Shown here: piece after piece, positions 1 through 45,455 of the stretch
Layout: every line of letters begins with the position of its first letter
Position numbering within the stretch: the stretch's first letter is position 1
Source: Ananas comosus
Taxonomy: Eukaryota > Streptophyta > Magnoliopsida > Poales > Bromeliaceae
NCBI RefSeq assembly: GCF_001540865.1
Contig: NC_033627.1
Span: 10,269,267 to 10,333,266 of the forward strand
Reading direction: 5' to 3'
DNA length: 64,000 bases
Translations under genes and position numbers: made by a program
Notes under the pieces: model-generated
The model's database searches: none
What the model was told of the DNA's origin: nothing
Seen by the model: only the letters and a program-made list of their open reading frames with translations

Positions 1-469
1 TCCTGAGCCGTTTTCGATGATGGAATTTTCAAATCGACGATCGGCTCCGTTAGACTTGATCTAGCGTATTTGAAGTTTCTAGAAAATAATTTTTGCGATT
101 TTTTGATATCATTTACCAAGTGATCGAAACGATTCAAAATCCATAATTTTTAATGGTTGATATCTGCCGTTTTCAAGTTTAACGGTGTAAAAGTATTCAA
201 ATCAAATGAAATTTTGATACAAAATTCTTTATACTATCTACAACAAGATCAATATTTCTGATCGAAAATTTTAGTGCTATATCACCATTTTTTATAGGAT
301 TTTTATTTTCAGCCGTTAAAAATTATTGATTTTGAATCATTTCAATTGCTAGGTAAATGATATCGAAAAATCGCAAAAAATTATTTTCTAGAAACTTTAA
401 ATACGTTAGATAAAGTTTAACGGAGCCGATCGTCGATTCGGAAACTCCATCATCGAAAACGGCTCAGGA
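1..469. mobile_element. Foldback MITE (long hairpin), left end may lie outside the window
   Basis: Bases 1-160 are nearly the reverse complement of 310-469, so almost the whole unit folds into one long hairpin with a loop of about 150 bases. The outer arm holds CGACGATCGGCTCCGTTAG and its complement at about 418-437. No coding potential is visible. It is followed by a GC-rich partial palindrome (466-495, core GGCCTCCGTGC). Relatives lie at 841-968 (partial) and, in mirrored text, at 5255-5815. The structure fits a non-autonomous foldback or Mutator-type MITE; superfamily assignment is uncertain. Confidence 0.75.
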
Positions 470-538
470 GCATAGAGGCCTCCGTGCTCCTGAGAGCACA
501 GCAGCCCTGCTCTCTCTCTCTCTCTATATATATATATA

Positions 539-786
539 GTAGAACTACTATGCTATCGGAAGTATAGAAGATCTGGTGCTTTCGATTTTTTGATTCTTAG
601 ATCAACCTCTTTAATTATTTCTTATCTTTGGATTAATACTATTATTGCCTTGTAGGGACCACTCAATCCTAGGGGTATTATTTAATCCTAGGAGGGACCG
701 CAATCATCCCAACCATACAATTCTTACTCAAAGTCAAAAATTCGAAAACATCAATCCTCTATATTTTCGATAGCATAGTAGTTCTA

Positions 787-787
<1 letters not shown>
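539..787. mobile_element. Small MITE with perfect 20-bp terminal inverted repeats
   Basis: GTAGAACTACTATGCTATCG at 539-558 is exactly the reverse complement of 768-787. The 249-bp unit is non-coding and sits inside a (CT)n(TA)n tract, with TA repeats on both sides (about 510-538 and 789-820). Flanking TA could be a Tc1/mariner-type TA duplication or simply the microsatellite. Its interior has two CAATCCTAGG/AATCCTAGG direct repeats. Confidence 0.65.

Positions 788-788
<1 letters not shown>

Positions 789-820
<32 letters not shown>
789..820. repeat. (AT)n microsatellite
   Basis: A pure alternating AT run directly follows the small MITE. Similar AT or CT runs lie at about 510-538, 5203-5265, 8229-8265, 13715-13790, 45425-45448 and 54508-54541. 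Confidence 0.9.
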
Positions 821-822
<2 letters not shown>

Positions 823-840
823 CTAGGCTGGTATACTATC

Positions 841-968
841 GGTAGCACGGAGGCCTCCGTGCTACCAAGTTGATTTCAATGATGCAGCTTCTATATCGAC
901 GATCGGCTCCGTTAGACTTGATCTACACTATTAAAAGTATTTGGAAACTAAATTTCATAATTTTTCGA
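841..968 (+). mobile_element. Truncated copy of the foldback MITE family
   Basis: It opens with a perfect 26-bp palindrome (841-866, core GCACGGAGGCCTCCGTGC), then repeats the outer arm of the element at 1-469, including CGACGATCGGCTCCGTTAG and ACTTGATCTA. Similarity stops at 968, where MULE-1 sequence begins. The second arm is missing. Confidence 0.65.
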
Positions 969-1200
969 CAGTGAGAAGCCACTGTGAGGCTTCTCACTGT
1001 GAGGCGCGGGGGGGCTTCTCACAGTGTGAAGCCACTGTGAGGCACGGGGGGTTGAGGCTTCTCACAGTGAGAATCCCCCCCGCCAGCACTCTCACAGTGA
1101 CTTCTCACCGTGAGAAGCCATTGTGAGGCTTCCCACAGTGAGAAGCCCCCACCCCGCACCTGTGAGAAGACTCTGTAGCTTCTCACAGTGAGAAGCCTTT
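969..1200. repeat. Array of CACAGTGAG/CTCACTGTG palindromic motifs
   Basis: At least ten copies of TTCTCACAGTGAGAAGCC-like half-sites or full palindromes occur in both orientations within 230 bases, separated by G- or C-rich runs. The same array occurs at 13930-14290 in MULE-2, just upstream of the transposase gene. It may bind transposase or form cruciforms; neither is shown. Confidence 0.7.
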
Positions 1201-1439
1201 CCCACTGCCCCTCCCCCCACCCAAACTCTCTGCAACCCCCCACCCCCTCTCTTTCACTGATTGTTCTCTGTCTCTTTGTCACAGGTTATTCCTGCGTTCT
1301 TAATTGGCAAAGTAGTCGCGCCCGCCGACCGTGCTTGTACAATGGTAATACCATCTTTTTACCCTCTTTTTTGTTGTATGTTAGAAATGTGATATGTCTT
1401 GAGTTTAATAATTTTTTACATGTTAATATATAAATTTAG

Positions 1440-2025
1440 AACTCTATATCTGGCGACATTGTTCCTTTCTATATCCATTGGGACGGAAATTTTGTCGAGA
1501 ACAATAATGTACCACGATATATTGGTGGCCGTAAAGAATTGATTGCGGTCCGACGCAATATCTCATTTCGGGATTTAGAGATGGAAATATACAATGTTAC
1601 TAATTATGATCGAGTGGAAGACCGTCTACGCATCACGGTGAAATGTCCAATGGGAGGCGAATGGGAATTTGTTAACGTATCAAATGACAATACACTATCT
1701 GGCGTGATGAGTATATTTCCGTTCCATGGATGTATAAAATTATACGTGGAGAAAGATGGGTCGACGGCACACGACCGTCCAAATACCGTTCATCAAACGG
1801 AAATGTGTCGTACCCGCAATGATCAAAGGAATTACGTCAATCGCGAACGAGGTCGTACATCAAGGTATAAAGTAATGATCTTTATAAATCTTTTTCGTGA
1901 TTTCTCAATTAGTTTAGGTGCGCGAAATAAATAACTTTGTCTTGTAAGTGTTTCAGAGAGTTTGGAGTTCCATCTCAGCCAGTTAGTGCAGTATTGCCAT
2001 CACCCACATTACATTTGTTATCTCC
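1440..2025 (+). pseudogene. MULE-1 transposase gene, N-terminal exons
   Basis: The exon 1440-1864 starts after an AG acceptor and stays open to a GT donor at 1865. It encodes the N-terminal domain typical of plant MuDR-type transposases: FYIHWDGNFVEN, YIGGRKELIAVRRNISFRD, then WEFVNVSNDNTLSGVMSIF. A second exon starts at 1957 (REFGVPSQPV) and runs to the N at 2026. The rest of the protein is found only by reading 12964 to 10328 backwards. An in-frame ATG exists at 1539, but the open frame begins earlier, so the true start is probably in an upstream exon. MULE-2 holds a frameshifted copy at 14575-15150. Confidence 0.8.
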
Positions 2026-2026
2026 N
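2026..2026. other. Single N, left edge of the mirrored segment
   Basis: Normal sequence lies to its left and reversed, uncomplemented sequence to its right. The partner N is at 12965. Confidence 0.95.
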
Positions 2027-4789
2027 CGTTTCGAGTTGTATATTATATTCGTACCTATTATTGTTTTCTCGTTCCCATTCTTTGGTAGTGGCTCGCACGT
2101 GGTGACATGGTTGTAGCCTAGCTTCATGGGTGGACATGTTGACAGCGCGAACAGAGGACTGACGTTTTCTTACAGTTGGCCTGGATTCCTCCCAGGTGAC
2201 CCAATCACAGATTGGGTGTCGATTCTTTGGGATTTTCGTATTGGGTGTTTGTTAGGGTGTCTTTAGCCAAAGGATTATGGCTAATGGCATTGAGCGGCCT
2301 TCAGGGCTTTTAGCGTGGCACTGAGGCGGCCCTGGGTGATTGATAGGGCTTTCCGTGGTTGAGTACGGTGCTCAGTAAGCGACGGTGATTTGTGAATAAA
2401 ATCACACTGTACCGTCGTTTGTGTTCCTATGTGTTGGTTTGTTGATAACCACTTATTAACAACCCTAGGCCTAAAGGCCTTCACAGATAAAGCTGTGGCC
2501 TTGGGTGGCAGCGAGTGGGCAGTAAAGACTTGAGAGCTTTACTGCGCTCACTGCTCGGTTGTTCCGAGTCGCTGATGTGTTATCGAGTGCTTCGTGGCAG
2601 CCTTATTAAGACTTGGTTTTGGCGCAAAGCAGCCGCCTAAAACGGCTGTTTGCGTGGCTTTTATGTAAAGGCTAGAAGCGTTTCCAGATCCCGGAACCTG
2701 TTAGTCAGGTCTCTAGTGGGTGTCGGATGGATACGACGGTTATCGTCGGCGTTGTTGGCCTTAACGTATTTTCGGGTAAGCTTATGGGCTTTAGCGTAAT
2801 AAAGTACGCTAAAGCCGCGAAAATACCAAGCAGACGTGTTTGGTCTTCACTTAGTCGGCTCGGTTATATGGGTAACTGTCCAAAGCTGCACGGCCTCCGG
2901 CACGAGTGGAAAACCTCGTTAAAGCCGGTGATGCCTCTCCCGCCCTCACTGCGCTTTTAGACGCTTGTCGCGCGTGTCGTACTTTTTGCACGAATAGAGC
3001 GATTGGTCCCCGAGCGACTGGGATTAACTCTACTCGTGACGCTAGTCCTGACTGTCTTATAGTGACACGAGTGGGGGCCTCCGTAGCCTTGTCGGAGCCC
3101 AGCGACCTTGTCACTGATCTTGTCCTTTAGTACACGTCCTGTCGTTGTTGTTACGAATGGCCGGTCCCGTTTCGATCCCGACCGGCGGCCGCCGGCCTGC
3201 CGTTCGCGAAACCGGCTTCCACCCTCGTCTACCAGGTTCCCCAGGCCCCTTGGACGACCGGCCGCCGCCCTCCGCCGGCCACCGCGCCGCCTTCTCTAGT
3301 TAAGGAGGTTCACCGAGACCCCAAGTTGCGAAGGGCCGCCGCGCCGCCGCCGGCCTCCTCCAGCCCCGCTGCCGCTAGGCAGCGGCCTCCGGCACCCTTC
3401 CCACCACGAGGGGCGACACCCGCCGCCGCTGCGTGCCTAACCTCCCTTCGGGTCGGAGCCGGGCGTGGTTCAGACCCGTCGACGTCCTGGAAGTCCGCCG
3501 CCGGCCGCCACCAGCCCCCGCGGCCCTTTGTGCGCGCACTCCAGCGGCTGTCTTCTCCTTCCGCCCCGGCTGGTGGAGCTCCGTCGACGTAAAGCGCCGG
3601 TGCTCGACTGAGCTCGAGCCGGGCTCGACGTCGTCTAACGGCGTCTACCAGGGCTGCCGCGGCCGCCGCGCACGCCTGCCGCTGCCGACCGTCCCTGCCG
3701 CGACCCCTCTAGCTCTTCCCACCAAGTAGGTTAGGGCTCGCCGTCATCCTGCTCCTCCTCCTCTAGAGTGTTGGAGCCGGTCTAGACAGGTCCAACCGGC
3801 GTAGGACGGTCCCGCCGCCACCGCCGCGAGGCCCCGCCGGCCGCCGCTACTACGATCTCTTCCCAGAGCCGGTCTCCCACATCATAGCTGCACCTACCAG
3901 TGGGGAGCTCGAGTTTCTGGTTTCTTCTTCCACCGATCCACCTCTACTACCATCTCCTCTCCGGCTAGGACCAAAGGCCGCCGGCCCCTTCGAGCGGCCG
4001 CCGGCCCTGCGCGCGGGACGATCCCGTACCTGGACGTCTACCGCCGATCCCGTGTCGACCCGCGACCCAACTCATCTAGATCCCAAAGCACGTATCTTTG
4101 GGATCTACGTGTAACATATGTTTCACGTTAAAACGTGTTTTCAGGTGGCTTGATGTTTAAACTTGGGATCAGGAAGTGTTACCCATTGAGAGCGCGAAAA
4201 CGTGGAGGTGTTAGCTAGAGCGCGCTAAGCCATGTATTTTATAATGCTGAAACCCTTAAAGGGCTAAAAGGTGAGAACTGGGGAATCGCTGGAATAACGT
4301 TAAGGGTTTCTAGGCAGGTAGCCTAAAGGCTAGCCTAGTGCGGTTGCGCAAGTCGTGCAGCTCCGTAGCTTAGATCGTAAAGCAAAGCAAGCTAAACTAG
4401 AGGCTAAGTGCTGCTTTAGGTAAGAGAGAGGTTTTCCGGTTTTACTACGTGTTAATGTATTCTTTGTACATAAAAGTCTAAAAGAGCTTTTGACACGTAG
4501 TCTAGATTTTAGGCAGTCACGGTAACCAAGGTCTTATCGACTTGACAAGTTTTGCTCGATAACCTAGCGTTACTTGCCTCAGGCTATGCGCGGCTTTCGG
4601 TTGAGATGTTGCACCGAAGAGGCCTTTTGGCCTCAATGATAAGTGAATTCACTTTTGATTATTAGCGCATTGAAGAGGTAAAATCGAGTAAAAGAGGACT
4701 TTGAACTGCTCACGAATACATTAATTTAATGTGTGTATTTGTAGTAGTTGTCTCTCAAATCAACGTGACATTTTTAGAGTTAGGAATGT
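2027..4789. mobile_element. LTR of the 4-kb family, partial (mirrored)
   Basis: Read right to left, it starts at 4789 with TGTAAGGATTGAGATTTTT, as the LTR at 22562 does. It then has the AT-rich promoter region, a GC-rich island (about 4080 down to 3165), a CCGGTAAGC donor-like junction near 3160, and the block GTGAGCAC...GTGCTCATCTCA. It stops at 2027, a point equivalent to 29655 in the copy at 26769-33999. The unusual base composition in the forward text is a consequence of the reversal. Confidence 0.85.
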
Positions 4790-5088
4790 GGTGATTCGTA
4801 GGAACCAGCTCGACCCCAGTTTATCTATTCGTAGTTCACACTTTAATGGTTTAATCGGAACGACGGTGCAAAAATGGTAACACATGGTCATGTGGTACTA
4901 CCGACATGACCATGTGGTTCGTCTTTTATGACTAAAGCGGTCTAGTTATGTGAAAGAACGAAAATCGAAAGGTCAGTGGGAGATTGAACAGGTTTTTGAA
5001 TAGGTTCGGAAAATCTTATACATCCTATCAAGGTGTAACGTAAGGTGTGTGAGCTTGAGGCGTTAAACGTGTTCAAGTCACATAATGT
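4790..5088. mobile_element. First 300 bases of a second LTR family (mirrored)
   Basis: Read right to left from 5088 it begins TGTAATACACTGAAC, the sense-strand start of the LTR family represented by 29784-32425 (minus strand there). It includes TGTACCAGTACA-type motifs near 4920-4875. It is cut at 4790 by the start of the 4-kb LTR. Confidence 0.7.
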
Positions 5089-5197
5089 AAAACTAGGGAT
5101 TATAAAAGAAAACGTTAGTTTAAAAATTTAGAGATAAAACTAAAGCTTACGGAAAACTAATCAAAATAAAAACCACGATAGCTATCATAGGGTCCGC

Positions 5198-5254
<57 letters not shown>

Positions 5255-5272
<18 letters not shown>

Positions 5273-5815
5273 TTCAGAGGACATGAAAGCTTTCATGCCT
5301 CTGGAGACACGAATATTCAACAAAAGCTACTATCCTTTAGGCTAAGCTGCTAGCCGAGGCAATTTATATTAGATGGGATAAACTTGATAAATCTTTGGTT
5401 TAAAATATTAAAAAAATTGTAGTAAATGGTTCGCTAGTTTTCCAGAGTTTTTACTGATCAAATTACCGGCTACACCGTGCAAAAATTCAAGTTGCCACAT
5501 TTTTATAGGTTAAATCTACTTTTAAATTATCTTTTAAGATGAATTGTAATTATCGTTCTGGTTATGAAGGCTAAACTTTAAACTCAGGAAATAGTGACAA
5601 AAAATACTCTAAAAATAAAAGTCGGCAAGTAAAACTCCGATGAACAAATGATCTGTTTGCTTTATTTTTTAAATACTTTAAACCAAAGATACATCAAGAT
5701 TATCGCATCTAGTACAGATTGTCTTGGCTAGCGGCTTAGCCTACAGGGTAATAACTTTTGTTGAATGTTCATGCCCCCGAAGGCATGAAAGCTTTCATAT
5801 ACTCGGATTGAGAGA
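5255..5815. mobile_element. Foldback MITE, full-length copy (mirrored)
   Basis: An inverted-repeat unit bounded by palindromes (ATGAAAGCTTTCAT near 5283 and 5783). Read backwards it contains GATCGGTTCTGTTAGAC and GGAGCCGATCGTCGAATCGG, the arm sequences of the element at 1-469. It is flanked by AT and CT microsatellite runs at 5203-5265. Confidence 0.7.
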
Positions 5816-5819
5816 TATA

Positions 5820-6014
5820 TATATATCCGACCCCGATGATATGAGAATACTCATATTTTAGGGAACATGAGTATTTAAAAATTGGCAACTAACTACCCTA
5901 TGTACCAATCCTACTACCACCAGGGATGAATCTTACTATCACTAGGGGGATCCCAACTCATCTATCAACCAATTTATCATACTAGATTGCCCACTTTTAC
6001 TAGTTACCTTATTT
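5820..6014. mobile_element. MITE-like remnant beside MULE-1 (mirrored)
   Basis: Read backwards it carries AACCCTAGGGGGATCA and TAGTAGCCCCAGCCTATATA, similar to the interior and end of the small MITE at 539-787. Bases 6014-6006, read backwards, give TTTATTCCA, which would be the 9-bp target duplication next to the MULE-1 right end. No matching copy is seen at its left end, which is truncated. Confidence 0.45.
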
Positions 6015-6560
6015 CCCGAAAAAAACGTTTATCGGGGGACTGTTTAAAATAAACGTTTTTATCGGTACAGGTTTTAAATAAACGTTTTTATCGGGACCGG
6101 GACGGTGCGGTCGCGGTGCAGTCGCGGTGCGCCCGTCCCAGACCCGGTCCATAAGTTCAACTTGTGCCACTAACCAAGTGGCACAGATTTGTGCCACTTG
6201 GTTAGTGGCACAAGTATCACAATGAGTGTGGCGCGGGCCCCACAATCATAACGTAATCTGTGCCACTAAACAAGTGGCACAGATTTGTGCCACTTGACAA
6301 GTGGCGCAAATCTGTGCCACTTGGTAAATGACACAGGAAGTGAAGGTATAAACCGGTTTATGCCGGACCGATCAACATAACCTGTGCTTGAATCGGTAAA
6401 AGCCCCTACAAATTATGTAAACATAACCTGTGCATCTAAACATAACCTGTGCCACTTACCAAGTGGTACAGGTTATTTAAAGATAGCCTGTGCCAATTAC
6501 CAAGTGGCACAGATTATATAAACATAACCTGTGCCACTAGGTAAGTGGCACAGGTTATGT
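6015..6560. mobile_element. MULE-1 right terminal inverted repeat with palindrome array (mirrored)
   Basis: Read backwards it ends GCAAAAAAAGCCC, the same terminus as MULE-2 at 18571, preceded by the same block containing CCTGGCCCAG. Before that lie many CACGGTGAA...TTCACCGTG palindromes separated by TCCAATACAAAT. The forward text shows these as TGTGCCACTT/AAGTGGCACA motifs, which is an artefact of the reversal. Confidence 0.85.
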
Positions 6561-6799
6561 TGACGGACGGGTCGATTATCAAACGGCGTCTTTTTAGTTA
6601 ATGTTCTAAATTATGTTCTTATGTTATGTCTATGGATAGTTATGTGTAGTGTTGTGTAGTGTTGTAGTGTTTTTATTATGTGTAGTGTTGTAGTGTTTTA
6701 ATTATGTGTAATGTTGTAGTGTTGGTTATCTTATAGTTATTATATTAGTTATGGTTTATTAGTTTTGTCTTATATCTTTTATTTACGTTCAATATGTTA

Positions 6800-8225
6800 T
6801 TATATATTTATATTATAGTACAAGAGGAGGGAGCTGGAGGAGCTGGTGCAGCGGATGGTGCAGGCGCTGGTGCTGGTTGTAGTACGAGTAGTTTTCCGAG
6901 GTTCTAGAGGTTGACCAGATCTACGAGATATCGTCGTGGGAGTTATTGGCCGAGTTAGTGTCGTCATCGTACACGACCATCATACAGACCGGCACCTCCT
7001 CGACTTCTCCTCCCGACTAGACCGGCACCTTCTCGACTTCTACTCCCGACTAGACATGCCTACCTGGAACTAGCGGCAGCTGCGGATTTTATTTGTTATA
7101 GTGGACGAGCTCGACCTAGGACGCCATGACCACGATCACGGCCCAGGCATTGTAGTCGTATTCCACCGAGGGGATAGCTACTACTACCGTAGCCACCTGA
7201 TATATGCCCACGTACCGGCCTACAGCTACGAGGTGGTATCAGACGACCAGGACCTGCATGTATCACACCTTCGCATCCATTTCAGAGGTCTTGACGGAGG
7301 TAGACTAGCCGCTGGACACTATCCCCCATCGATTCTGAGGTGGAGGACTTTATAGCCTATCCTGTGCAGACTAGCATATTACATTAGAGATGTGCTATAG
7401 TTGGACTTTATTTTCATGTTAGGTTTTTCTAATATGCTTTGAAAGAACATATATATTTTTAATTATATTTTTCTATAAACGTTAATGTTAGTATGGTTAT
7501 GAGAGAGCTGCACAGGTGCACCGACTATCCGCTCACCACCGGCGACATGTCCAGATCTATAGGTGGAGGACCACTAGCAGGTTATGGTGACGTACATTTG
7601 TCACCATCGAGCATAGCCTAGACCTAGACAGAATCCCCGGTGGAGACGATATAGATGATTAGATAGTAAGGTTGCGAGTTACATACTCCGCACCATACGG
7701 CGGGTTAGGAGTAGACGAGACGGAACACTTAACTACGCTCCATACCGTTCGTGTCCAAGTCCATATATGACATCATCGGGTTTGACCGCTTCGTGTGCTA
7801 GCCCTACTACCTCGAGTTATTACACCTTCGTCTGATTCCATCAGGAGCTAGCGGTTTGGACCCTGGGGCGATCTGTTTTTCCACCCTCGCAGAGATTGTG
7901 ACGCAGCAGTATTCCGGAGGTATATTAGATAACACTTTTTATGTATACTAATCGATAGTTTTAATTTGATATAACTAGAGTCACCCAATTTTTTACTTGA
8001 TAACACTTTTATCTGCTACTTTTAACTTATTAGAAATTTTAAACTCGTATCCTGAAAATTTAAGTTCTAGTTATTACAATTAGAATTAAATATATCAAAT
8101 TTCATAAAAGATAGTTTTAAACTTCTTTAAATCTAAGAAGATATATCATCGGATGGAGATATATATCATATCTATCATATCATCGGATCGAGATATATAT
8201 CATATCTATCATATCATCGGATCGA

Positions 8226-8271
<46 letters not shown>

Positions 8272-10186
8272 TATATCATATAACCGGATCAAGCTATTAC
8301 GTGAATACGTCCTCTCTGAGATTGAACTTTAACTAGTGGATGTTTGGATTAACTCCCATTTCGCTTGTGCAACCGCTTCAGCCAAGCCGTTAGGCAGCTC
8401 GGATGCGCTTCTATAGTGGTTTTCCTACAAAAGTCGAAGTTTTACCTTACTATTAGCTTTAGGCAGCTCGGATCGAGATATATATCATATCTATAACATA
8501 ACATCTATCATATCATCGGATTGAGATATATATCATATCTATCATATCATCGGATCGCGATATATATCATATCTATCATATCATCGGATTGAGATATATA
8601 TCCTAAAAATTTAAGTTCTAGTTCTTACAATTAGAATTAGATATATCAAATTTCATAAAAGATAGTCTTAAACTTCTTTAAATCTAAGAAGATATATCAT
8701 CGGATCGAGATATATATCATATCTATCATATCATCGGATCGAAGATATGTGCGTAATAAGTAAGTAGGAATGTAATGTAACCCTACCAAACAAACACATG
8801 AACTTGTGTGAATAATCACAATATCGAAAAATAAACAAGCTATGTGTGGTAAATATAGAAGTACAACGTTTCCTCTACAAAAAATAACCCAAAACCATAC
8901 AAGATATGTAACCGGACTCCGTACGTCGATCTCATTTTGAACTGTACGTTGTTTCACAAGGATTACCCTTCTATGACTATTTAGTGTAATAACTTATGTT
9001 TTAAGCTGTCTAACTCATTGAACATATATGGACTCTGAGATTGACGACTAGGTCGACTAGTGCTATTTTGAGTTACAGTCATCAGGACTATAACAGGGCT
9101 TTACGATTATATCACAAGGTGGACTAAGTAAATATAGTATAATCAATACTTTTTAATCATATATCTTTTGAATTTTACTTTTTTATGAATGGCTGTGGGA
9201 TTACCGTATAGCTGTTCGAGTCCGACGCCCGGATGATGGAGTCCCGCCGGTTATACGTCCACCAGAGTACGGGTATAGATATGTTTTTTTTTGTAAGAAC
9301 AATCTTTACCTTTGTTTTTGGTACTGAATTGATCTTCATAATATTCCCAGAAGAACAATCTTCATGACATGGACTTGATTACAGGGTTTTGTTGTTGTGA
9401 GCTGGAAAGGGGAATACGTTCGTAAAAGATCCCGCGCTATTTCTACACGATCGCGCCGACGTGGGGTACGATTACGTGGTGTTTCCAGTTTTAAGAGATT
9501 TTCACCGTTGGTAAAGTTTATGTGGTACAAGGGCAAACCTAAACCTTTGTTTGATGTAGGATAGACTTTATCATATATACGAGAGCGGCATCGAGATTGT
9601 TATCGTCCTCCACGCAGATTCCCCTATAGTACCTTGACGACTATATTGGTTAGATAGAACTAGAGTGGTGGGGACTATAGGAGGCCTTGATGGGGCTCTT
9701 CATTGGGCGTCTCGAGACGGGTGACTATCCTAGGGGGAGGTCAGTGACGGGGTGGTAGCTGCCCCTCAGGGGATTATTGACGTTGCAGATAGTTACATTA
9801 TGAGTAGAGAGGTATAGCGTTTACCTTTGAGACACAGAGGGCGGCGGTGGAGAGCTGATTACGAGGGTTATTACTGACTAGCTCGACATCCGCCGCGTTA
9901 GCACTTTGCATTATTTTAGGACGAGCAGCGTTATTCAGGTTGTGGCGTCCTACGAGCGTGACGGTAGACAAGTTAAATGCCGGTATGAGGCATTTAACTT
10001 GTCCTCTTATAGGGATGTACTAACACTTACGGTCGTGCATTTAATCATATATTCAATTTCTTCTAGATGCATTTAAACTTTACAAAACTTTTTTAAATGG
10101 AGTAGAGACTAGTTTCATTTAGATACAGCACCGACGAGTCAGTCGTGTCTACATAGTTATCCAGGGCCGAGCAGTACTAGTAGGTA
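6800..10186. pseudogene. Plant mobile domain (PMD) gene of MULE-1 (mirrored)
   Basis: Read right to left, an ATG at 10186 opens MDDHDEPGPIDTSV. It is followed by plant-mobile-domain exons: LVERWRRETQSFHL, YGEMSITLIDVAVIRGLP, WLPLLENFDLCGALAWGAAA (about 9860-9370), then IWAWDHLHIGRPEVVG (about 9270-9190) and FRDNIRTTDIEFYRDQL (about 9045-8980). A nested insertion occupies about 8970-7925. The domain resumes with YDDAVLETLPPFC (7908) and NDRLVDIAEVAP, then a proline/serine-rich tail ending in GRGRGRGRRRGRGG near 6800. Introns use GT-AG in the backward reading. One stop lies near 9975. PMD genes are known passengers of plant MULEs; their function in transposition is unclear. Confidence 0.82.
7925..8970. 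mobile_element. Nested AT-rich insertion with about 50-bp tandem repeats inside the PMD gene (mirrored)
   Basis: It splits the PMD coding sequence between ...DQLDQQLESQ and RPYDDAV. Read backwards it has repeated units of TATATATAGAGCTAGGCTAC TATACTATC type at 8740-8460 and 8240-8160. This resembles the GAGCTAGGCTGGTATACTATC sequence at 821-841. One block (8350-8325 backwards) matches GCCGAACCGACTTCGCCAAC at 62414-62433, an independent sign of the reversal. Confidence 0.6.
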
Positions 10187-10327
10187 GACTTTAACCGTTT
10201 TTTTTTTTTTTTTTTTGAATCAATTTATGTTGTACTACATTTTAATCACGCATTCATATTTTCTAATTTCTTCAATTCACAGTATAAGTATATCTTTTTA
10301 GATAGCTGCTGCGGAGAGCCAAGAAGA

Positions 10328-12964
10328 AATGACTAAAAGTCCTGTTCACGAAAATATTACAGGTCCGACAAATGTGTATGATGTGAACGGGGAGGATAAG
10401 GGTGACTGAAGCAGGTATTGTAATGCCTATGCGCATCTAGATCCAGCAGGGAAAAAAGAAGAGGGCGCACCACCGTGATATCCCCTTAGTATACTGCGCT
10501 AGGTTATTGCTGCTAGCTCATGCCCCATCTTAACGCCAAGTATTCGGAATGTTATACTAAGTTGTCATATGGTTCCTCTTATATTCGGTATTATTAGATA
10601 CAAGTACACACTACTTGATGTTGTACTGTTTTACACACTTGTTCCCTAAGGACACTCAATGTTTGTGTTTGTACTTGTACATCTTGACGAAGGTAACTAT
10701 CAGTGAACCATAACTAGTAGGGGCGGTTATTCATACAACTTGTATACTTTACGTTTAGCAACTTGCCATATAGGAGAGCGTGAAGAGTAGGCCGATAACT
10801 ACCAAAAAAGTTGTCAGCACTGTTTGACGCACCTGTAACGTCGCGGAAGACAGGCTACAAAATCTTTTTTAAGTTGGTGAGCTACTTTACAACGGTAGTG
10901 TTTTCGACATTAACCATTCCGCGTTTGAGGGGAGTTGTGGGGTAAATTTGAAAGGCTAGCCAATCAACAGTATTATGGTTTAGCAGCTGGTGGTAGTTTT
11001 CGAAATTGGGTCATACAGGATAGCAATACTTCTAACAGTTGGGTTGCAGTTCGAAGAAGTAGGTATCGGAAGTTAAGAAGGAAATTACGCATTATAACGG
11101 TAAGAAGACTTCGTGAGGATTAAGCTATTTTTTAAAATTCATTCACAAAAAGAAACTTTACTTATAAGTATAACCGGAAGTATACAGCGTTTGTGGTAGC
11201 TACTCGTACTGGAAGTCTACCACCCTTATGTTCACGTTGCTCGAAGCGATTCGGAAATTTTGCTAGACTTTAATCACATTATTGAACTCTAGAACAATAT
11301 GTGGAAGAATCCGTTGAATTTTTGGTGAGGGTTGAGCTCAGTAAGAAGGGGAGTGTTTAACTCTTTCGATCGCCTTTATTTGGTGGTAAGCGTAGCTGTG
11401 GACACCGTTAATTACGCACCGGAGGCATAAAGGGTATGTCTACTCATCGAAGCTATGATTCATTACCGGCCGTTATGAGGGTTGGTACTTAGCTTCCAGG
11501 TTTTCGGGTTTTCCGAGCACTTTTGTAAGAGCATAACGAGCGGTGTGATTATATGAGTTAGAAACATTATCAAAGACCTAAACAACTAAGGTTGTATCTC
11601 TTTATAGCTCCTTCCAGCGTCATACTAACGAGGGTTAACGGCATATATTAAACATTACGAAATAAGACACGGGCGGTTCGGAACGATATACTATACGATT
11701 GTACATTGAGCGAGACTTGAGTTCGAACTTAAAGGTAGCCTGAGTAACATTCGGAACGGAAATCACATCCATCATATTTAACTGTATACTTTCTACTACA
11801 CGTCAAAGTTACAGAACATAAATCTTAACCTTGGTTTGTTCACACGCCTGGAAATATTCAGAAATGAAATTTTTTACTTGATGGAAAGCCAACTCTCCGT
11901 ACATTAGAGGTTCCCGTTCTTAGTTGGTGTGTAGCGTGTCATATAGATCAACATAAACTGAATTGTTGAAATTCGACGTGTAATACACGTTACACGGTTC
12001 GCAGGTTCCGGGAATGATCGCTACTAAATAGTCTTTTTCAGGCTAATCGGGTACGAAGTAGTGAACCTCCTGGGACTAGTTATAAAACAAGTGATATACG
12101 TAGTTGTTGCGAAACTAATTAATTAAGTAATGGGTCCTGTTTGGCAACAGCAACTAGAAGTTTAAGGTGCTTAAGGTGGCCTAGGCCATGTAGAAGTAAC
12201 AACCGTAAACTCAAAAATTAGGTAAGTTGTGGAAGTAGAGCTTACCGCGTACGCTCCCGTAAGTTCGGTGGCAGTACTAGTCCTAGGTTTCTTGTGCGTT
12301 GTTTCCTGAGGAGCAGTAGTGATCTTAGTCGTAGTTAAGCGGGAACTAGGAGAAGTAGTCAAAGTGATTGTATGAGGAGTAGTGAAGATGAATGCAGGTT
12401 ATCTAGTCAACATCAGTGAGGGGCTAACCAGGTAAGTGCTACTCATGTACTACCTAGAAGTAAAACTATTCCTCCCTATCATAAAGAATGACCGGTTCGG
12501 CTGGTAACTACTTGTGATCTACCAGGACCTGGACGTAGATGTATTCCTCCCAATCATAAAGAATGAAGGGTTCGGCCAGTAAGTACTTGTGATCTACTAG
12601 GACCTGGAAGTAGATGTATCCCTCCCGATCATAAAGAAAGAAGGGTTCGGCCGGTAAGTACTTGTGATCTACTAGGACCTGAAGTAGATGTATCCCTCCC
12701 GATCATAAAGAAAGTAACGTTCGGCCGGTAACTACTTGTGATGTACTACCTGGAAATAAAACTATTCCTCCCTATCACCAAGACTGAAGGGTTAGGCAGG
12801 TAAGCACTTGTATTCTACTACCAGCACCTGAAACTATTCCTCCCTGTCATCTGGACGTCTCTATATATTCTAATTGATAAGTGTAACTAAAAAATGCATT
12901 GATTTAGTATGTTAGTGGATGGTGAGTAAAATTAGTTGGTTGCCTCTGCCTAGGTAGTGTCGTC
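10328..12964. pseudogene. MULE-1 transposase, MuDR type (mirrored)
   Basis: Read right to left, the domains in order are: 25-residue tandem repeats (12860-12420); an acidic stretch; a CxxxxxCxW...HxC domain (VRCVVDSCPWRLHAS, near 11940); the DDE-type core (FSRAFWAFGPS, SIEATHLYGKYGG near 11460-11395, LISDRFKGLAKLV near 11210, HRWCLRHMK near 11140); NRSESLNGVLRG; a SWIM zinc finger (CSCLCL and TGIPCSHIL, 10620-10575); and a C-terminal CCHC knuckle (CSMCKQPGHYKSTC). The frame ends at a stop at 10330-10328. Two in-frame stops occur, TGA near 10987 and TAA near 10600. Where MULEs usually have the first catalytic Asp, this copy reads Glu. The gene is otherwise remarkably complete. Confidence 0.9.
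12420..12860. repeat. About six 75-bp coding tandem repeats in the MULE-1 transposase (mirrored)
   Basis: Read backwards, units of about 75 bases encode GPGSSSVHEWPAWEERNTSP, followed by PYVDE. The outer units are more divergent. MULE-2 has a decayed equivalent at 15236-15640. They lie between the N-terminal domain and the acidic linker. Confidence 0.75.
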
Positions 12965-13199: not shown

Positions 13200-13690
13200 G
13201 GGCTTTTTTTGCAAATAGCCCCCTAACAAATTTTATTTGCAAAAATAGCCCTGTCCAAAATTTATTTGCAAAAATGGCCCTGGCCCTGCCACGCCAGCGC
13301 CACGTCAGCGCCACGCGGGCAGGGCCTGGGCCAGGTATTCAAGCTGAACACGGTGATTCGTTCACCGTGTTTAAACACGGTGAACCAATCACCGTGTTCA
13401 ATAGGAATCGTTATTTCTATTGAACACGGTGAACCAATCACCGTGTCTAGCACAGTAATTGGTTCACCGTGTTCGATAGAAAATGGTATTTCTATTAGAC
13501 ACGGTGAACTATTCACCGTGTCTAGACACGGTGAACCATTCACCGTGTTCTCTTTGAATACACACCCCGTCTCGATCTCTGTCTCTGAGTGCAATTCTAT
13601 TGGACACGGTGAATGGTTCACCGTGTCCAGCAGACCACTCTAGACACGGTGAACCATTCACCGTGTTCTCTTTGAATACACACCCCCCCC
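13200..13690. repeat. MULE-2 left TIR with CACGGTGA palindrome array
   Basis: The first 200 bases match the reverse complement of 18371-18571 with few changes. From about 13350 to 13670 there are more than ten CACGGTGAAC/GTTCACCGTG palindromes, each able to form a small hairpin. A 45-base unit ending CACCGTGTTCTCTTTGAATA is repeated at 13536 and 13655. Confidence 0.85.
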
Positions 13691-13699
13691 TCCCACCCC

Positions 13700-13786
13700 C
13701 GAACTCTGTCTCGATCTCTCTCTCTCTCTCTCTCGATCTCGATCTCTCTCTCTCTCGCTCTCTTCCTCTTTCTCTCTCTCTCTCTG

Positions 13787-13818
<32 letters not shown>

Positions 13819-13930
13819 CCTTTGTTGCCCGAGGTAGCTTCATTCCTCGTTCTCCCTAGCCCTAGAAGCTTCTCTCCTCCCCCACTCTCTCTCTCTCTCT
13901 CTCTCTCCCTCTGTGCGCTCACTGTGATAA
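13700..13930 (+). repeat. CT-rich microsatellites and a (CCG)n run
   Basis: TCTCTCTC tracts at about 13717-13785 and 13885-13910 flank a run of GCC triplets at 13791-13818. It lies between the TIR and the transposase leader; any open frame through it is low complexity. Confidence 0.85.
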
Positions 13931-14290
13931 GCCCACCCACCCGCCTCTGTGAGGATTCTCACAGTGAGATACGGGCTTCTCACTGTGAGAAAGTCCACCC
14001 CCCTACAGTGCTGGGAGTGCTGGGGGGTGGTTCACTGTGCGGGCGGGGGGGGGGCCCAGTGAGAAGCCTCGACACGTGTGAAGAATCGCCTCCCCCACCA
14101 GCACTCTCTCACAAGTGTTGAGAAGCACACTGTGAGGATTCTCACTGTGAGGCGCGGGGGGCGGGGGGGGGGCGGTTTCACAGGTGAGAAGCCACTGTGA
14201 GCACTCCCCCCTAGCAGTCGTCCACAGTGGTTCTCACTGTGAGAAGCCACTGTGAGCACTTCCCACAATGAGAGCCACCCCCACCTGTGA
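13930..14290. repeat. CACAGTGAG palindrome array of MULE-2
   Basis: Repeats of TTCTCACAGTGAG and CACTGTGAGAAGCC in both orientations, interspersed with G/C runs, match the array at 969-1200. Confidence 0.75.
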
Positions 14291-14574
14291 AGAAAGACTC
14301 TTAGCCTTCCTCACATGAGAAGCCTGTTCCCACTGCCCCTCCTCCCACCCAAACTCTCTGCAACCCCCGCACCCCCCTTACTTTCCTGATTGGTTCTCTG
14401 TTCCTTTGTCACAGGTTATTCCGCGTTCTTAATTGCCAAGTAGTCGCGCCCGCCGACCGTCGCTTGTACAATGGGTAATACCATCTTTTTACCCTCTTTT
14501 TTGTTGATATGTTAGAATGTGATATGTCTTGAGTTTAATAATTTTTACTGTTAATATATAAACTTTAGCTCTAT

Positions 14575-15150
14575 ATCTTGGCAACATTGTTTCCTTTTCT
14601 TATCCATTAGGACGGAAATTTTCAGACATAATGTACACGAGTATAATTGGTGGCCGTAAAGAATTGATTGCGGTCCACACGCAATATCTCATTTGGATTT
14701 AGAGATGGCAAATAAATACAATTGTGTACTATTATGATCAAGTGAAGACCGTCTACGATCACGGTGAAATGTCAATCGGGAGGCGAATGGGAATTTGTTA
14801 ATCTCAAATGACAATACACTATCTGGCGTGAGAGTATATTTCCGTTCATGGATGTATAAAATAACTGATAAACGATGGTCGACGAGCAGCGACGTCCAAA
14901 TTACCGTTCATCAAACGGGAAATGTGTCGATACCCGATGATTCAAGAGGAATTCAGTCAATCGCACGACGAGGTCGTAACAAGTAAAAGTAATGATCTTT
15001 ATAAATCTTTTTCGTGATTTCTCAATTAGTTTTAGGTGCGCAGAAATAAATAACTTTTGTCTTGTAGGTGTTTCAGAGACGTTTGGAGTTCCATCTCAGC
15101 CCAGTTGTGCAGCAATTGCCAATCTGTTGTGATGGATCGTCTCCGTGGTT
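14575..15150 (+). pseudogene. MULE-2 transposase, N-terminal exons (frameshifted)
   Basis: It is collinear with 1440-2025: GGCCGTAAAGAATTGATTGC, then the WEFVN and NDNTLSGV regions, then the exon starting after TGTTTCAG (15075) encoding FGVPSQP. Many single-base gains and losses break the frame. Confidence 0.85.
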
Positions 15151-15235
15151 GAATCAAAATGAGTGGTAGGTCGGATTGTATGATTGTGTTACATTAAAAA
15201 ATCAATGTGAATAGTTAATCTTATATATCTCTTAC

Positions 15236-15640
15236 AGTCTTACCTGCTCCCTCTATATTAAGGTCCAGACCATCACTCTATGTTCACGAATGAGCATTGA
15301 AAGTCAGAACCACCTATCCCTCCTCCATCAAAATGAATGGTCATGCTGGTAGTGTTCATCAATGCCGGCATTGGAAGAAAGAAATACTAGCACCTCCCTC
15401 ATGTAGATAAGTCAGGATCATCTAGTGTTCATGTACACTCGCGCTTGGGAAGAAAGAATACTAGCCTCCCTATGTAGATGAAGGTCAGGATCAATCATGT
15501 GTTCATAATGGCCGCTTCGGAAGTAAGAAATACTAACCTACTTATGTAGCATCGAAGGTCAGACCATCTAGTATTTCAATGTTCCGGCTCTGGTCCTCCT
15601 TATCAAATGAAGGATCATCATGTACTCATCGGAAGGACCA
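15236..15640 (+). pseudogene. MULE-2 degenerate 75-bp repeat region
   Basis: Decayed units of GATCATCTAGTGTTCATG...GGAAGAAAGAAATACTAG correspond to the transposase tandem repeats read backwards at 12860-12420. Confidence 0.7.
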
Positions 15641-16650
15641 ATCGGGAGTGACTACAACTGATCAGTTGACGTAAAGTAGAAGTGATAGGATATGTTAGTG
15701 TAAACGATGAAGAGGAGTCAAGGGCGAATTGATGCTGATTCTAGTGATGACGAGGAGTTTCCGTTTAATGGTGTTCTTTGGATCCTGATCATTGACGGTG
15801 GCTGGAATTGCCTTTGAATCGCGCCATTCGAGATGAAGGTTTGAATGATTGAAAACTCAAATGCCAACAACGAAGATGTACCCGGACCGGTGAATTGTGG
15901 AATTTGAAGCATCAACGACAACGTTTGTCCTGGGTAATGAATAATTAATCAAAGCGTTGGTTGATGGCATATAGTGAAAAAATATTGATCAGGCGTCCGT
16001 CCAAGCTGATGAAGCATGGCTGAATCGGACTTTTTCTGATAAGCATCTATCGCTAGTAAGGGCTGGACGCTTGACACATTCACAATACTGTGCGCTAAAG
16101 TTGTTATAGTCAAAACAATAGATATCTGTGCGATGTCTGTGGTGATTCTGCCCTGGAGATTACATTGCCTCTCAACCGAAAGGTAGTTATTTTTAAAGTA
16201 AAGACTGTATAAAGGTCTCGCACACTTGTTTTGGCTTCCGATCTCTAAATACAGAGACATCGAAACTGCACATACATCTTTCATAGCGTCAATTTATACA
16301 TACATGAGGCAAGGCTTACAATGATCGATGAAATCAAGCTCTGAGTTCAGAGGATTACACGTTAGCATATCATATAGCAAGGTTGCGGCACAGAATAAAG
16401 CACTGACAAAATTATTATTACGAGTATGGAGCAATCAATACGTGCGACCTTTCCTCGATATTCTCTATGGTTGAATCAACAAATCCAGGAACTATTACAA
16501 ATTGAGTATATAGGTGTGGGAGCATACAGAATGTTTTCACGAGCCTTTTGGGCTTTTTGGGACCGTCGATTCATGGTTGGAGATTGCGCCATTACTTAGT
16601 ATCGATGCTGACTCTCATGTATGGGAAGTGCCTATGCTCAAATTTAAAAG
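15640..16650 (+). pseudogene. MULE-2 transposase, central part, truncated
   Basis: The acidic linker (near 15700) is followed by a frameshifted CxW...HxC domain (near 16130-16215) and then FSRAFWAFG with LLSIDADSHVW near 16530-16625. Here the first catalytic position is Asp. Similarity to MULE-1 then stops, and PMD sequence follows from about 16745. The two remaining DDE residues, the SWIM finger and the CCHC knuckle are deleted. Confidence 0.82.
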
Positions 16651-16744
16651 ATTATTCAATTTTTACACCGCGTTATTTTCACAATAGTTCAATATATGAT
16701 TTGAAACGCTAATCATATGTAGTTTTCACCAGAAGTTAGTATAG

Positions 16745-17800
16745 AGGGCTTTGACGGCGCAGTGTTAAGAGACGTTCCCACTTTTGTTTGCGCGGAGTCG
16801 CCAGGTTGGCGATCGAGACTACCTTAGTTCTGCTTCCAGCATTATTGAGCATCCATCATCCGGATCGTGTCGCTTCGCCCAGTTTTAGGCTACTACAGCA
16901 TATACCAACGCCTGGCTGTGCCATAAGCCTCGCGATCAATTCAGAGGCCAGAGCAGATGAGGGATTGGGCGGCAATACAGCTCATAATTGCCGTTGTGAA
17001 TGATAGATTAGTAGATATAGCAGAGGTGGCCCTGAGACAGATCAGATCGGATACGAATAACACTATTGTTACAGCAGTGGTATTGGATCGATCACCGGAG
17101 GTGGATTCTAGACCTGTCAGCGGCCACCACATCGCCTATCAGGCCACGTGACACCTCGAGCAGAGTATTTGGTATTGATTATAATTGCAATATCTTTTTA
17201 TATTAATTTTAATATATACAATGAATTTCGTATAATCTTTTTTGATTGTCTTTTATTCTCAGGTTGATATCGTGCAGAGATCACATTATACGATCAGACC
17301 GTGTCCTACCGCATATTGTCACGAGGTGGAGTCTTAGCTACGCTTCCACCATGTACCTCCAGGACCAGCAGACTATGGTGGAGCATCGACGTCCGGCCAT
17401 GCACCCGATATAGTCCACTGGATGCCATCATCACCGATGGGACCACCTTATGCTGATGTTCGGACCCGGCACCAGCACTAGTAACAGGATCCAGCTCCGA
17501 GCAGGTGATTATTGTTTATTTTAGGCGTCGACGGTGATCGAGTCTATCCGTACAAGATCAGCCTTCCTCTTCCAGCTCCTCCACGGCAAATCAGCCCTCC
17601 TCTTCAGCTCCTCCAACGGCCAGACATACTACGGCACGGGCTACTGCTGTGATTGAGCCGTTATTGAGGGTGCTGCTATAGAGCATCTAGACCAGTTGGA
17701 GATCTTGGAGCTTATGATGAGCATGATGTTGGTCGTGGTCGCGGACGTGGTAGGCGACGTGGTCGAGGAGGTCGAGGAGGAGAACATGATATTATATTTA
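16745..17800 (+). pseudogene. MULE-2 PMD gene, C-terminal part
   Basis: It matches the mirrored PMD gene from YDDAVLETLPPF onward: a decayed block at 16745-16950, then NDRLVDIAEVAL (16998-17033), an intron (about 17150-17262), and an exon starting VDIVQRSHYTIRPC-like. The serine/proline tail and GRGRGRGRRRGRGG (17735-17785) close it. Frameshifts are present, and the N-terminal two-thirds of the domain are missing. Confidence 0.78.
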
Positions 17801-18059
17801 TATATTATTGTATAACTTGCATTTATTTTGTATATCTGTTTTTGATTATTTGGTATTTATTATATTATTGAGATTCTAATTGGTTTGTGATGTTGTAATG
17901 TGTATTAATTTTGTGATGTTGTGATGTGTATTACTTTTGTGATATTGCTGATGTGTTGTGATGTGTTGTGATGTGTTTTGATAGGTATCTGTATTGTATT
18001 CTTGTATTGAATCTTGTAATTGATTTTTCTGCGGCAAATTTTTAGTTGTGTGGGTAGTT

Positions 18060-18571
18060 GTATTGAGACACGGTGAATGGATCACCGTGTCCAATACAAA
18101 TGTATTGGACACGGTGATCCATTCACCGTGCCCATTGACACGGTGAATGGTTCACCGTGTCCAATACAAATGTATTATGCACCCCCGAAAATGGCTAAGT
18201 CCGTGTCCAATACAACTAGCCAGGCCGTATTTGGCCAAGTATGGAAGTGATGGACACGGTAAATGGTTCACCGCGTCTAAACGCGGTGAACAGTTCACCG
18301 TGTTTAGACACGGTGAATGAATCACCGTGTCTAATGCAAACTAAACCCCGGCGGGGCGTGAGTAACACTGTGAACACGGTGATTGGTTCACCGTGTTTAG
18401 ACACGGTAAACGAATCACCGTGTTCAACTTAACTACCTGGCCCAGGCCCTGCCCGCGTGGCGCTAACGTGGCGCTGGCGTGGCAGGACCAGGGCCATTTT
18501 TGCAAATAAATTTTAGACAGGGCTATTTTTGCAAATAAAATTTATTAGGGGGCTATTTGCAAAAAAAGCCC
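18060..18571. repeat. MULE-2 right TIR with palindrome array
   Basis: CACGGTGAATGG...CCATTCACCGTG palindromes at 18065-18160 and 18255-18425 lead into the outer TIR (about 18430-18571). It is the inverted counterpart of 13200-13690. Confidence 0.85.
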
Positions 18572-26768: not shown

Positions 26769-29700
26769 GTTGACGATGTTTTTATGTGTAATTTAATTAC
26801 ATAAGTACTTGTCAAGTTTCAAGAGAAAACGAGTTAGAATGGAGAAGTTACGCGATTATTAGTTTTCACTTAAAGTGAATACTAACTCCGATTTTTCGGA
26901 GAGGCCACGGAGTAGAGTTGGGTTTCGGTGCGTATCAGACTCTGTTCATAGCGATCCAATAGCTCGTTTCGACCGGTTCAACTATTCTGGAACCAATGGC
27001 ACTGACGGATTTCAGATCTGATGCATGGTTTTCGAGAAAAAGAGGTTTCATGGGATTATATATATGGTATATATATGTGTTATATGGTGGAATGAAGAGA
27101 GGATGAGTTTTGTCACAAATCGGCGACCAAATAAAATGAAACAAAATTGTAGATGTGATGCTGCAGTCGTGCTGAACGCGCTGGTGTGATCCGATCGAAA
27201 ATTCGACTGACGGATCCTCGGGAAACGTGAGAAGTTCATCGAGGGGTCTAAGGTGACAAATCGGAATTTTCACAAATGTCCCTATATTTTATGTACCAAA
27301 TCGCGCGAAATCGGACGTGGAGGTGCGGGCACGCGATTTACTCGCACTGTAAAGGGCTCGGTTGCAAATTTTCAGTTTCGGAGGACTTTAGTGCAAAGTG
27401 GCCATTTATATATATTGAACATCTAGGGTTTCAGCCATGGAAACCCTAGACCTAGCCAACCCTACCTCCTCAGCTAACCCTAGCCGACACCACAGCACCT
27501 CTACCCATGTCGTGCTAGCGCCCCGGCCGCCGGCGAGCATTCCCGGCCGCCGGAAAACCATCCATCGGCCTTCCCTCAGCTCTTTCTCTCCACCTAGCCT
27601 CTATCATATCTCTCCAAGATCAATCCTGAGTGAACTTCACCCTCGAGCGCCCTCTCCTGGCCGTAGCCCAGCCTCCGGCGACTCCCCTCGTCGCCGCCGT
27701 CATCGCCTAAGCCCCTTATGGCCGAGCTGAGTCAACTAAGGCCGAGCCCAACTGAGCTAGAAATCGGTGTGCTGCCGCCGCCCCAATCGGCAGCATGGCT
27801 TCCCCCTGATCTTCGACGACCCCCGCGCGCCGTCGCCGTAGCCTCAATTGGCCGCCGTCGCTGCCCTGGCCGTTCACGGCCACCCTTTGTCAGGCCAGAC
27901 CGAGAATGGGTGGGCTCGAGGCCTGCGCGTCGCCGCCACTCCAGGTTGGTCGCGCCGCCCTCCTAGGACTCCGGCGATCCCCTCACCGTTGTCGCCGTCG
28001 TCCCTGTAGCCACCGGCCGCCGTTCCAACTCCCTGCGGCCACCCAGAGGTTGGGCTGGCCGAGCCGAGGTCAACTGGGCCTCCGAGCGCCGCCGCTGCCT
28101 TAAGCCGGCCTCGCCGCCTTCCTCGGCCTCCGGTGACCCACCGCTGCCACCCTGGAGCTTCCCTAATCGCCGCCGTGGCCGCCGCTGCCTTGGAAGCTCG
28201 ACTCGAGCCCATGCGCGCTCGAGATGTTCCAGCGCCACCACCGCCGCCCTCCGCCGTCAGATGGTGTGAGCGTCGGCCTCTCCTGGTCGGCCGCGGCCGG
28301 TTGCTGCCGGCGCCCCGCCGCCGGAGCCCCCCCTTCTGGCTAGACTTTGAGCCGAGCTCCCCTACCACGTGGCGGCTAGGGCATCATGGCCCGTCGCCTC
28401 CGCCGCCTCCCATTGCCGGCCGACACGCGCCCCAGCCTTCCTCCGTCGTCAGCAACCTCCCCCTGCCGGCGCGCCCGCCGTCCGGCAGCCGTCGGCCAAC
28501 CTTGCTCCACCAAGCTCCGGTAAGCTTAGTTTGAGGTTTCCTGTGCACTGTTTGAGTTTTCGATCACTTTTTCGGTGATTCTAGGGCACCCCGATGACCG
28601 TGGAAGTGAGCACGATCATCGTTACTTCATGCTGAACAACGTGCTCATCTCCGCTGAGGTCAACGGTGCCCTGATTTGTGTGTTAGAAGCGTTTTATGTA
28701 CTATGCGCGCAGTCCGCTGAAGTTCGTGTCGCTCCCGCGCTCGCCACAGTGGCCGGCCATGCTCCGAAGTGTGAGCACGGCCTCCGGCATGTCGAGACCT
28801 ATCAGCGAGTGTCTCGACTCGACTCGAATGTCCTCGGTTTGCGCTATCGGACCGTAAAGTCCCGTAAATAACATGAAATAATGTAATTTTACGTATTATA
28901 GGGGACTTTTGTGCAATTATACACTTCATGGCTGCTGTAGGTAGTGTGTAAGGACAGCGGGTGACCTCTGGACTAGTTGTCCAAGGCCCCAGGTTTTTTG
29001 AAAATCAAATGTTGATTTCCGGCACGTTTTTCGGCAAAATCCGCTGACGGAACGCGGGTTCAGTTCGGAATTAATCCGACGGTGCTTCGTGATGGATCGT
29101 TTAGTCGCTGAGCCTTGTTGGCTGGTCACTCGCGTCATTTTGAGGGTTCGAAAATGACGGGTGAGCCACGGTGGGTTCCGATGTCGAAATTGACACTTCC
29201 GAGAACCCGGATCCGAACAATTATCCGGCGATAGTTGTTTGGTTATGTATCCTTGTGTTTGCTGCCAAATCCCATGATTAATGGTGTTTAGTGGCAGCGG
29301 GTGACTGGTAGCATGAGTCGGTGCGTTCCGGGACAGTTCGTGGGTCCCGACAGAGTCCCGGTGCGATTTTTGTGACATCCGGCGAGTTACGGTAATCGAT
29401 TTTAGGAAACCGATCTTCGTGGGATTGTTTGTGGGGTTATGGATTCAGTGGTTATTAGTTGTGGGTTAGACACTAACCCGGTGGACCTTTCTTAGGTCCG
29501 GGTGACTTTCTTCCGCAGTCAGGAGACAGATGCGACATTCGTACAGGTGGATACTTCGATCCGAAGTCCGTACAGTGGTGCACGCTCGGTGATATCCTCT
29601 TGCCTTTGTTCTTCTGCTGTTATTATTGCATATATATATTGAGCCTTGCATCGATATTGTTTCCATTTTACTCTACTCAGATATTTTCGTACTTAGTATC

Positions 29701-36965: not shown

Positions 36966-36972
36966 TTATATC

Positions 36973-45417: not shown

Positions 45418-45455
<38 letters not shown>

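Follow-up and report, generated by a model that had tools for sequence, protein, structure and literature searches.

Within a 64,000-nucleotide stretch of the Ananas comosus genome (hereafter the window: positions 10,269,267 to 10,333,266 of NC_033627.1 in RefSeq assembly GCF_001540865.1), the block at 2027-12964 reads backwards without being complemented. Reversed, it aligns to correctly written sequence elsewhere in the window and encodes parts of a MULE DNA transposon. Similar mirrored segments recur on many contigs of the same assembly, typically beside gaps. Sequence comparison makes it nearly certain, in our judgement, that such segments are contig-end extensions written backwards beside gaps, an assembly artefact and not biology. 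Positions below are those of the window; reversed positions count from 12964 as base 1.

Results

A block of the window is mirrored

The window corresponds to C7:10269267-10333266 of the source assembly (381,958,007 bases, 3,128 contigs). It contains single Ns at 2026, 12965, 23554, 32185 and 59022 and a run of 25 Ns at 49356-49380. Cutting at the Ns gives seven segments, which we compared with one another, taking every segment both in its given and in its string-reversed form. The reversed, uncomplemented block had forward matches in segments 1-2025, 12966-23553, 23555-32184, 32186-49355 and 59023-64000. Its best match was to 16626-18571 (84.8% over 2,093 columns, 2,146 bits); others lay at 15124-16627 (84.6%), 28471-29649 (76.1%), 26769-27599, 22604-23195, 24288-25222, 37965-38822 and 62390-62462. 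The mirrored sense reaches both ends of the block: reversed base 1 (window 12964) is placed at 15124 by alignment, and reversed base 10938, the last (window 2027), at 29649. A sequence-only reading of this DNA had named five forward sites: 15124-15182, 17262-17340, 38000-38090 and 62414-62433 fall within the matches found here, and 29577-29655 overlaps the one in which the block ends at 29649.

At E<=1e-5, the reversed block matched the rest of the window over 6,667 of its 10,938 bases, compared with 38 of 10,938 for the block as given, searched on both strands. These figures bear directly on the explanation that the block is an ordinary inversion, an inverted repeat or a mirror repeat. Inversions occur often, and repeats may flank them, but they yield the reverse complement, and the block as given has next to no matches in the rest of the window, whether forward or reverse-complemented; that explanation is refuted, and we leave it practically no probability. 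One hundred resampled sequences with the same dinucleotide make-up reached at best 36.5 bits. None of the other six segments, when reversed, matched the window at E<=1e-5 except to the mirrored block. That the block at 2027-12964 reads backwards without complementing is confirmed.

A strand-symmetric Markov model, trained leave-one-out on the other segments, scored the block higher when reversed in 10 of its 10 kilobases; outside the block this held for 7 of 50. With all four model orders that were used, the block was the sole segment whose overall score was positive. Open reading frames (ORFs) of at least 85 amino acids (aa) numbered 27 in the reversed block and 13 in the block as given; for at least 90 aa the counts were 23 and 10. 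We compared chosen ORFs, six of the 27 and four of the 13, with Pfam at its curated cut-offs. Four of the six reversed ORFs scored above them (PF03108; PF10551 together with PF00872, Transposase_mut; and PF10536 twice), while the other two gave one zinc knuckle below cut-off and no match, respectively. The four ORFs chosen from the block as given had no Pfam match. With 152.1 and 86.7 bits against a curated cut-off of 34.9, the two PF10536 matches belong to the plant mobile domain (PMD) family. A homologue found through one of the reversed ORFs aligned by tblastn to a single frame of the reversed block with 271 of its 271 residues (49.8%, 6e-88) and weakly to 12966-23553 as given; tblastn with this homologue found no match in the block as given. 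The earlier claim that reversal restores a MULE transposase and a PMD sequence is thus borne out.

Raw-read noise was considered as the source of the block and rejected: the block holds a 256-aa open frame, and its 1.18-kb MAFFT alignment with 28471-29649 has 3 gaps. BLAST opens 17 gaps where MAFFT has 3. Judged by its sequence, the part of the block aligned there does not look like uncorrected long-read sequence.

Mirrored segments recur beside gaps

A search of the assembly with 2027-4027 as given returned 51 pieces at 40 places including the query itself (65 candidates, 40 scored), and hence 39 other places among the matches listed. The block itself was found at C7:10271293-10273293 with 100% identity. 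This bears on the idea that the string was altered while the window was prepared and is not mirrored in the public assembly. The window by itself could not exclude such a slip, but the source assembly has the same letters at this place and is mirrored at many others, which makes it very improbable.

Around 20 of the 39 other places we took ten-kilobase stretches (numbered L009 and upwards below), in which mirrored sequence is present by construction. Correctly written sequence is also present in 16 of the 20, and 14 of the 20 show the order gap, mirrored segment, correct contig. As for the remainder, one gap side is visible in L017 and L026, the contig side only in L011 and neither edge in L012, L019 and L024. 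Of the 14 stretches that show both edges, 13 have no N separating mirrored from correct sequence; the exception, L020, has a single N (L020:5369) lying 281 bases inside the mirrored end, as in the window. Gaps adjoining the mirrored segments have sizes of 1, 18, 23, 24, 25, 106, 382 and over 1,000. An edge of the mirrored segment falls at an assembly gap and not at a biological feature in the window (right edge, N 12965) as in 14 of the 20 stretches.

The same observations argue against an isolated accident, in which a single scaffold piece, one contig between two Ns, was misplaced by a wrong strand operation. The block does seem to lie between two Ns, and the other six segments of the window share one handedness; however, the left N lies inside mirrored sequence (see below), and further mirrored segments are spread over the assembly, as a rule next to gaps. 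We reject this explanation and give it only a very slight chance. The assembly or gap-patch bug that the sequence-only reading had suspected agrees with what we find, namely mirrored segments on many contigs, typically beside gaps, with a gap-side end that continues the contig. Its further suggestion, that the same error is hidden elsewhere in the assembly, is right, since mirrored copies occur on many contigs. In the 14 stretches with both edges visible, however, a gap lies on one side only of the mirrored segment, and in 13 of them the segment runs into the correct contig without an N, so that a scan for N-to-N blocks would miss such cases.

The gap-side end continues the contig

Where the contig and the mirrored segment match the same paralogue, their order can be checked. 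We used the pairs nearest the junction; many other, non-adjacent pairs were also listed. At six located junctions, and in the window, the contig is continued by the end of the mirrored segment that faces the gap. The offsets from the last contig base to the gap-side base are 0 (L028), +1 (L013), +1 (L021), -4 (L015), +7 (L027) and +30 (L023) bp, so that all six lie within 30 bp and four of them within 4 bp. The rule is the same for right-hand (L015, L021) and left-hand (L013, L023, L027, L028) extensions, and the window's own junction fits it to within a base. Since its gap-side end continues the contig, the mirrored segment is a true extension of that contig, written end for end. L022 gives +2 for its nearest pair, but 516 unlabelled bases lie between and the switch is not located there; its contig piece at 8748 also has a small offset, among non-adjacent pairs and by coincidence. 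Offsets in L010 and L016 are 142 to 375, with alignments that end before the junction, and L009, L014, L018, L020 and L025 have no usable junction pair.

In the window, the match of the left contig to the related MULE copy at 13200-18571 extends as far as 1999 in the alignment and as far as 2001 when judged by eye. Reversed base 1 (window 12964) takes up the match at the paralogue base that corresponds to 2001 or at the adjacent one (15123-15124). The 24 bases at 2002-2025 are without counterpart in that MULE copy. Reversed, they continue across the N in phase with the closest relative, L013 (23 of 24; 0 of 500 shuffles reach the score), and they align across the N with the sequence after the paralogue at 29649 (12 of 5,000 shuffles). 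Among the other 18 relatives, 7 of 500 shuffles reach the score of the window's own paralogue, and for the rest 17 to 401 shuffles do so; the unreversed 24 bases score higher in three of these 18 more distant rows and equal in one. The case for the left edge rests mainly on L013, because it is the only close match in the comparison. Our reading is that the mirrored segment spans 2002-12964, meets the correct contig without an intervening N and contains the N at 2026.

The block had been described as lying exactly between two single Ns. Its right edge is indeed at N 12965, but its left edge appears to be at 2002, with the N at 2026 inside. Nor does a gene continue across the left N from 2025, as had been proposed; the transposon continues from 2001 instead. 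We found no overlap between the end of the reversed block and the sequence from 12966 onward, and none is expected there, because of the extension rule.

The junctions also bear on a biological origin, in which a polymerase that exchanges bases or works in the wrong direction produced the segments as real DNA ('swinger' DNA, 3'-to-5' polymerisation). The N-free change from normal to mirrored sequence in 13 of 14 stretches resembles the abrupt transitions that have been described for swinger DNA in databases under the A<->T + C<->G rule (PMC4942731). Yet DNA of this kind should be positioned independently of assembly gaps, and the mirrored segments sit at such gaps, with a gap-side end that continues the contig within 0-30 bp where testable; no biological process could sense where an assembly has its gaps. 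Moreover, it is the reversed reading that shows transposon domains and long frames. We consider such an origin even less probable than an isolated accident.

Extent of the error

To gauge the extent we counted 24-mers across the assembly and, as a control, the same 24-mers read backwards. A 24-mer from a dispersed repeat occurs 1,424 times in normal form (709 + 715) and 42 times mirrored (23 + 19), or 42 of 1,466 (2.9%), where about 3e-6 would be expected by chance; the 95% interval of 2.1 to 3.9 is too narrow, as copies are partly paired. A 24-mer from the MULE terminal repeat was found 64 times normal and twice mirrored. A tRNA 24-mer was found 11 times normal and never mirrored, a result with an upper 95% limit of 28% that says little alone. 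The mirrored fraction thus rests on two repeats (42/1,466 and 2/66) whose copies are partly paired and not independent; pooled, they give about 2.9% (95% interval 2.1 to 3.8). If these repeats sample the assembly fairly, perhaps about 3% of it, some 11 Mb, is mirrored. Genes may be less affected than this, since repeats may sit near gaps more often.

Twelve loci (11 sites) were cut around the mirrored 24-mer, as a sample independent of the first repeat. Mirrored matches extend beyond the 24-mer in 12 of 12 loci, and an N run lies within 3,024 bases in 10 of 12, where about a quarter would be expected from the density in the window (our own arithmetic, from 6 runs in 64 kb).

As a separate observation, the sequence at 1-469 is a long imperfect palindrome (76% self-inverted over 483 columns), and it holds the 24-mer counted 1,424 times.

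Several observations weigh against the interpretation as backwards-written extensions. Within the window, the unreversed sequence at 4798-4835 has a match on the opposite strand at 31896-31933 (33/38, 47.3 bits), above the resampled maximum of 36.5; by eye, this stretch has several short mirror-symmetric words, which may be the origin of the match. Composition is a weak guide outside the window, 8 of 10 mirrored pieces called by alignment scoring positive. L012, L019 and L024 have no N in 10 kb, and two of the loci cut around the 24-mer, L029 and L040, have none in 3 kb. Between mirrored and correct sequence there are 200 to 1,900 unlabelled bases in 6 of the 14 ordered stretches (L009, L014, L016, L018, L022, L025), and in L020 a piece of 219 bases (659-877) matches mirrored between correct pieces with no gap beside it. 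Seven of the 14 (L009, L010, L014, L016, L018, L020, L025) are without a flush junction test, and in L027 a longer second alignment gives an offset of about +190.

Transposon and repeat content

The features of the window that concern the mirrored segment are collected in Table 1.

Table 1. Features in and around the mirrored segment, in window positions (a dot marks features without strand).
Position	Strand	Feature	Basis
1..2001	+	Correctly written contig joined to the mirrored segment	972-1999 matches 14119-15121 (84.6%)
2002..12964	.	Segment taken to be mirrored (string reversed, uncomplemented), one N inside at 2026	Alignment, edge matching, composition
2002..4792 (reversed 8173 onward)	.	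Mirrored part of a dispersed repeat family, distinct from the MULE	Mirrored and normal copies elsewhere in the assembly
2026	.	Single N, taken to lie within the mirrored segment and not at its edge	Mirrored match stays in phase across the N in the closest relative (L013)
6015..12964 (reversed 1-6950)	.	Right-hand portion of a MULE DNA transposon that can be recognised only after reversal; terminal inverted repeat about 6015-6065	
7493..7927	reversed reading	145-aa ORF, last part of plant mobile domain (PF10536, 2.3e-24)	Pfam
9360..10013	reversed reading	218-aa ORF, first part of plant mobile domain (PF10536, 2.9e-44)	Pfam
11051..11719	reversed reading	223-aa ORF, MULE transposase domain (PF10551, 5.8e-14)	Pfam; tblastn of homologue
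11810..12577	reversed reading	256-aa ORF, MuDR-family transposase DNA-binding domain (PF03108, 2.9e-12)	Pfam
12965	.	Single-N gap	Adjoining base 12964 continues the contig ending at 2001
13200..18571	+	Related MULE copy, correctly written, with both terminal inverted repeats	Alignment
28471..29649	+	Forward paralogue of reversed 9757-10938; the sequence that follows it is similar to the 24 mirrored bases before N 2026	

More of the block's MULE lies in the correct contig at 972-2001; its left terminal inverted repeat was not found in 1-2025. The related copy at 13200-18571 is flanked by a 9-bp target-site duplication, CTCACTATG, at 13191-13199 and 18572-18580. It is without the stretch that matches reversed 1536-4908, where a large share of the transposase and the first PMD part are located, and from its sequence it looks like an internal-deletion derivative. 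The hallmarks of a MULE are thus distributed over two copies, the domain and one terminal repeat being found in the reversed block and both repeats and the 9-bp duplication in 13200-18571. Alignments of 14119-18571 with the reversed block and with 972-1999 contain many small insertions and deletions; these would be located in the copy at 14119-18571, which is perhaps uncorrected long-read sequence. The dispersed repeat of reversed 8173 onward has several forward copies in the window.

MULEs that carry a PMD are known (PMC5418596). Like the MULE-PMD transposons described there, the reversed block encodes a MULE transposase and a PMD in one element. Those elements encode fusion proteins, whereas in the block the two domains are on different ORFs, with about 320 bp between them.

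Elsewhere in the window, 57749-58235 and 59023-59509 (487 bases, 99.4% identical, about 1.27 kb apart) flank the single N at 59022. The pair is either a duplicated contig end or a tandem repeat.

Discussion

The mirroring, the edges in the window, the recurrence beside gaps and, at testable junctions, the junction rule are matters of observation; as their cause we infer an extension or gap-filling program or script. In the mechanism we propose, contig ends would have been extended into gaps during assembly with real sequence of the same genome, and the extension strings would have been written end for end, the far end being joined to the contig and the contig-touching end left at the gap. An equivalent route would be a minus-strand piece that was complemented and never reversed; the data do not separate the two. 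In the window, the contig ending at 2001 would have gained about 10.96 kb, which now stands in reversed form at 2002-12964 and includes one N. Judging from this N and from the open frames, the added material would have consisted of assembled pieces and not of raw reads, and the inner Ns (L020:5369 and 2026) hint that these pieces themselves carried Ns.

Tools that work in a comparable way have been described. The PBJelly paper reports flank extension and 'overfilled' gaps (PMC3504050), and according to another paper PBJelly enlarges any gap below 25 bp to that size (PMC6733440). Extension of this type resembles the case in the window in that sequence is added at contig ends and unclosed gaps are left as Ns (PMC3504050), and the window's one 25-N run can be compared with the 25-bp gaps (PMC6733440). 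The passages of the PBJelly papers that we compared do not describe backwards-written extensions. The single-N gaps, the inner N and the segment of about 11 kb do not point to any one extension tool.

One author (Seligmann) has reported A<->T + C<->G swinger DNA, with sharp switches, from nuclear and mitochondrial GenBank records (PMC4942731, PMC7027195). The string relation is the same in both cases, complementing without reversal being equivalent to reversal without complementing, and so are the sharp switches within a record. Swinger DNA is read there as the product of altered polymerisation, whereas in the assembly studied here the position at gaps and the order at the junctions point to a writing error. 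The same picture can arise from record keeping, which is recognisable by its position at gaps. Among the papers listed by our literature search, which left subscription papers and supplements outside its scope, we saw no earlier account of reversed but uncomplemented assembly segments. On balance we think it rather probable that the case described here is an unreported systematic error in a chromosome-scale crop reference, in which extensions making up about 3% of the assembly (about 11 Mb) were reversed, usually with an N-free false join, and that errors of this kind could explain swinger DNA in databases.

For the Ananas comosus genome, the consequence is that any gene, repeat, marker, regulatory motif or variant call placed inside a mirrored segment is wrong, since that order of letters is absent from the plant, and genes that lie within such segments become unreadable. 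Gap-aware checks would miss the false joins, because most of those seen here are without an N. A simple test is available for any assembly: align the sequence adjoining each gap, reversed without complementing, to the rest of the assembly. The finding also offers a plain alternative to claims that unusual polymerases lie behind such sequences.

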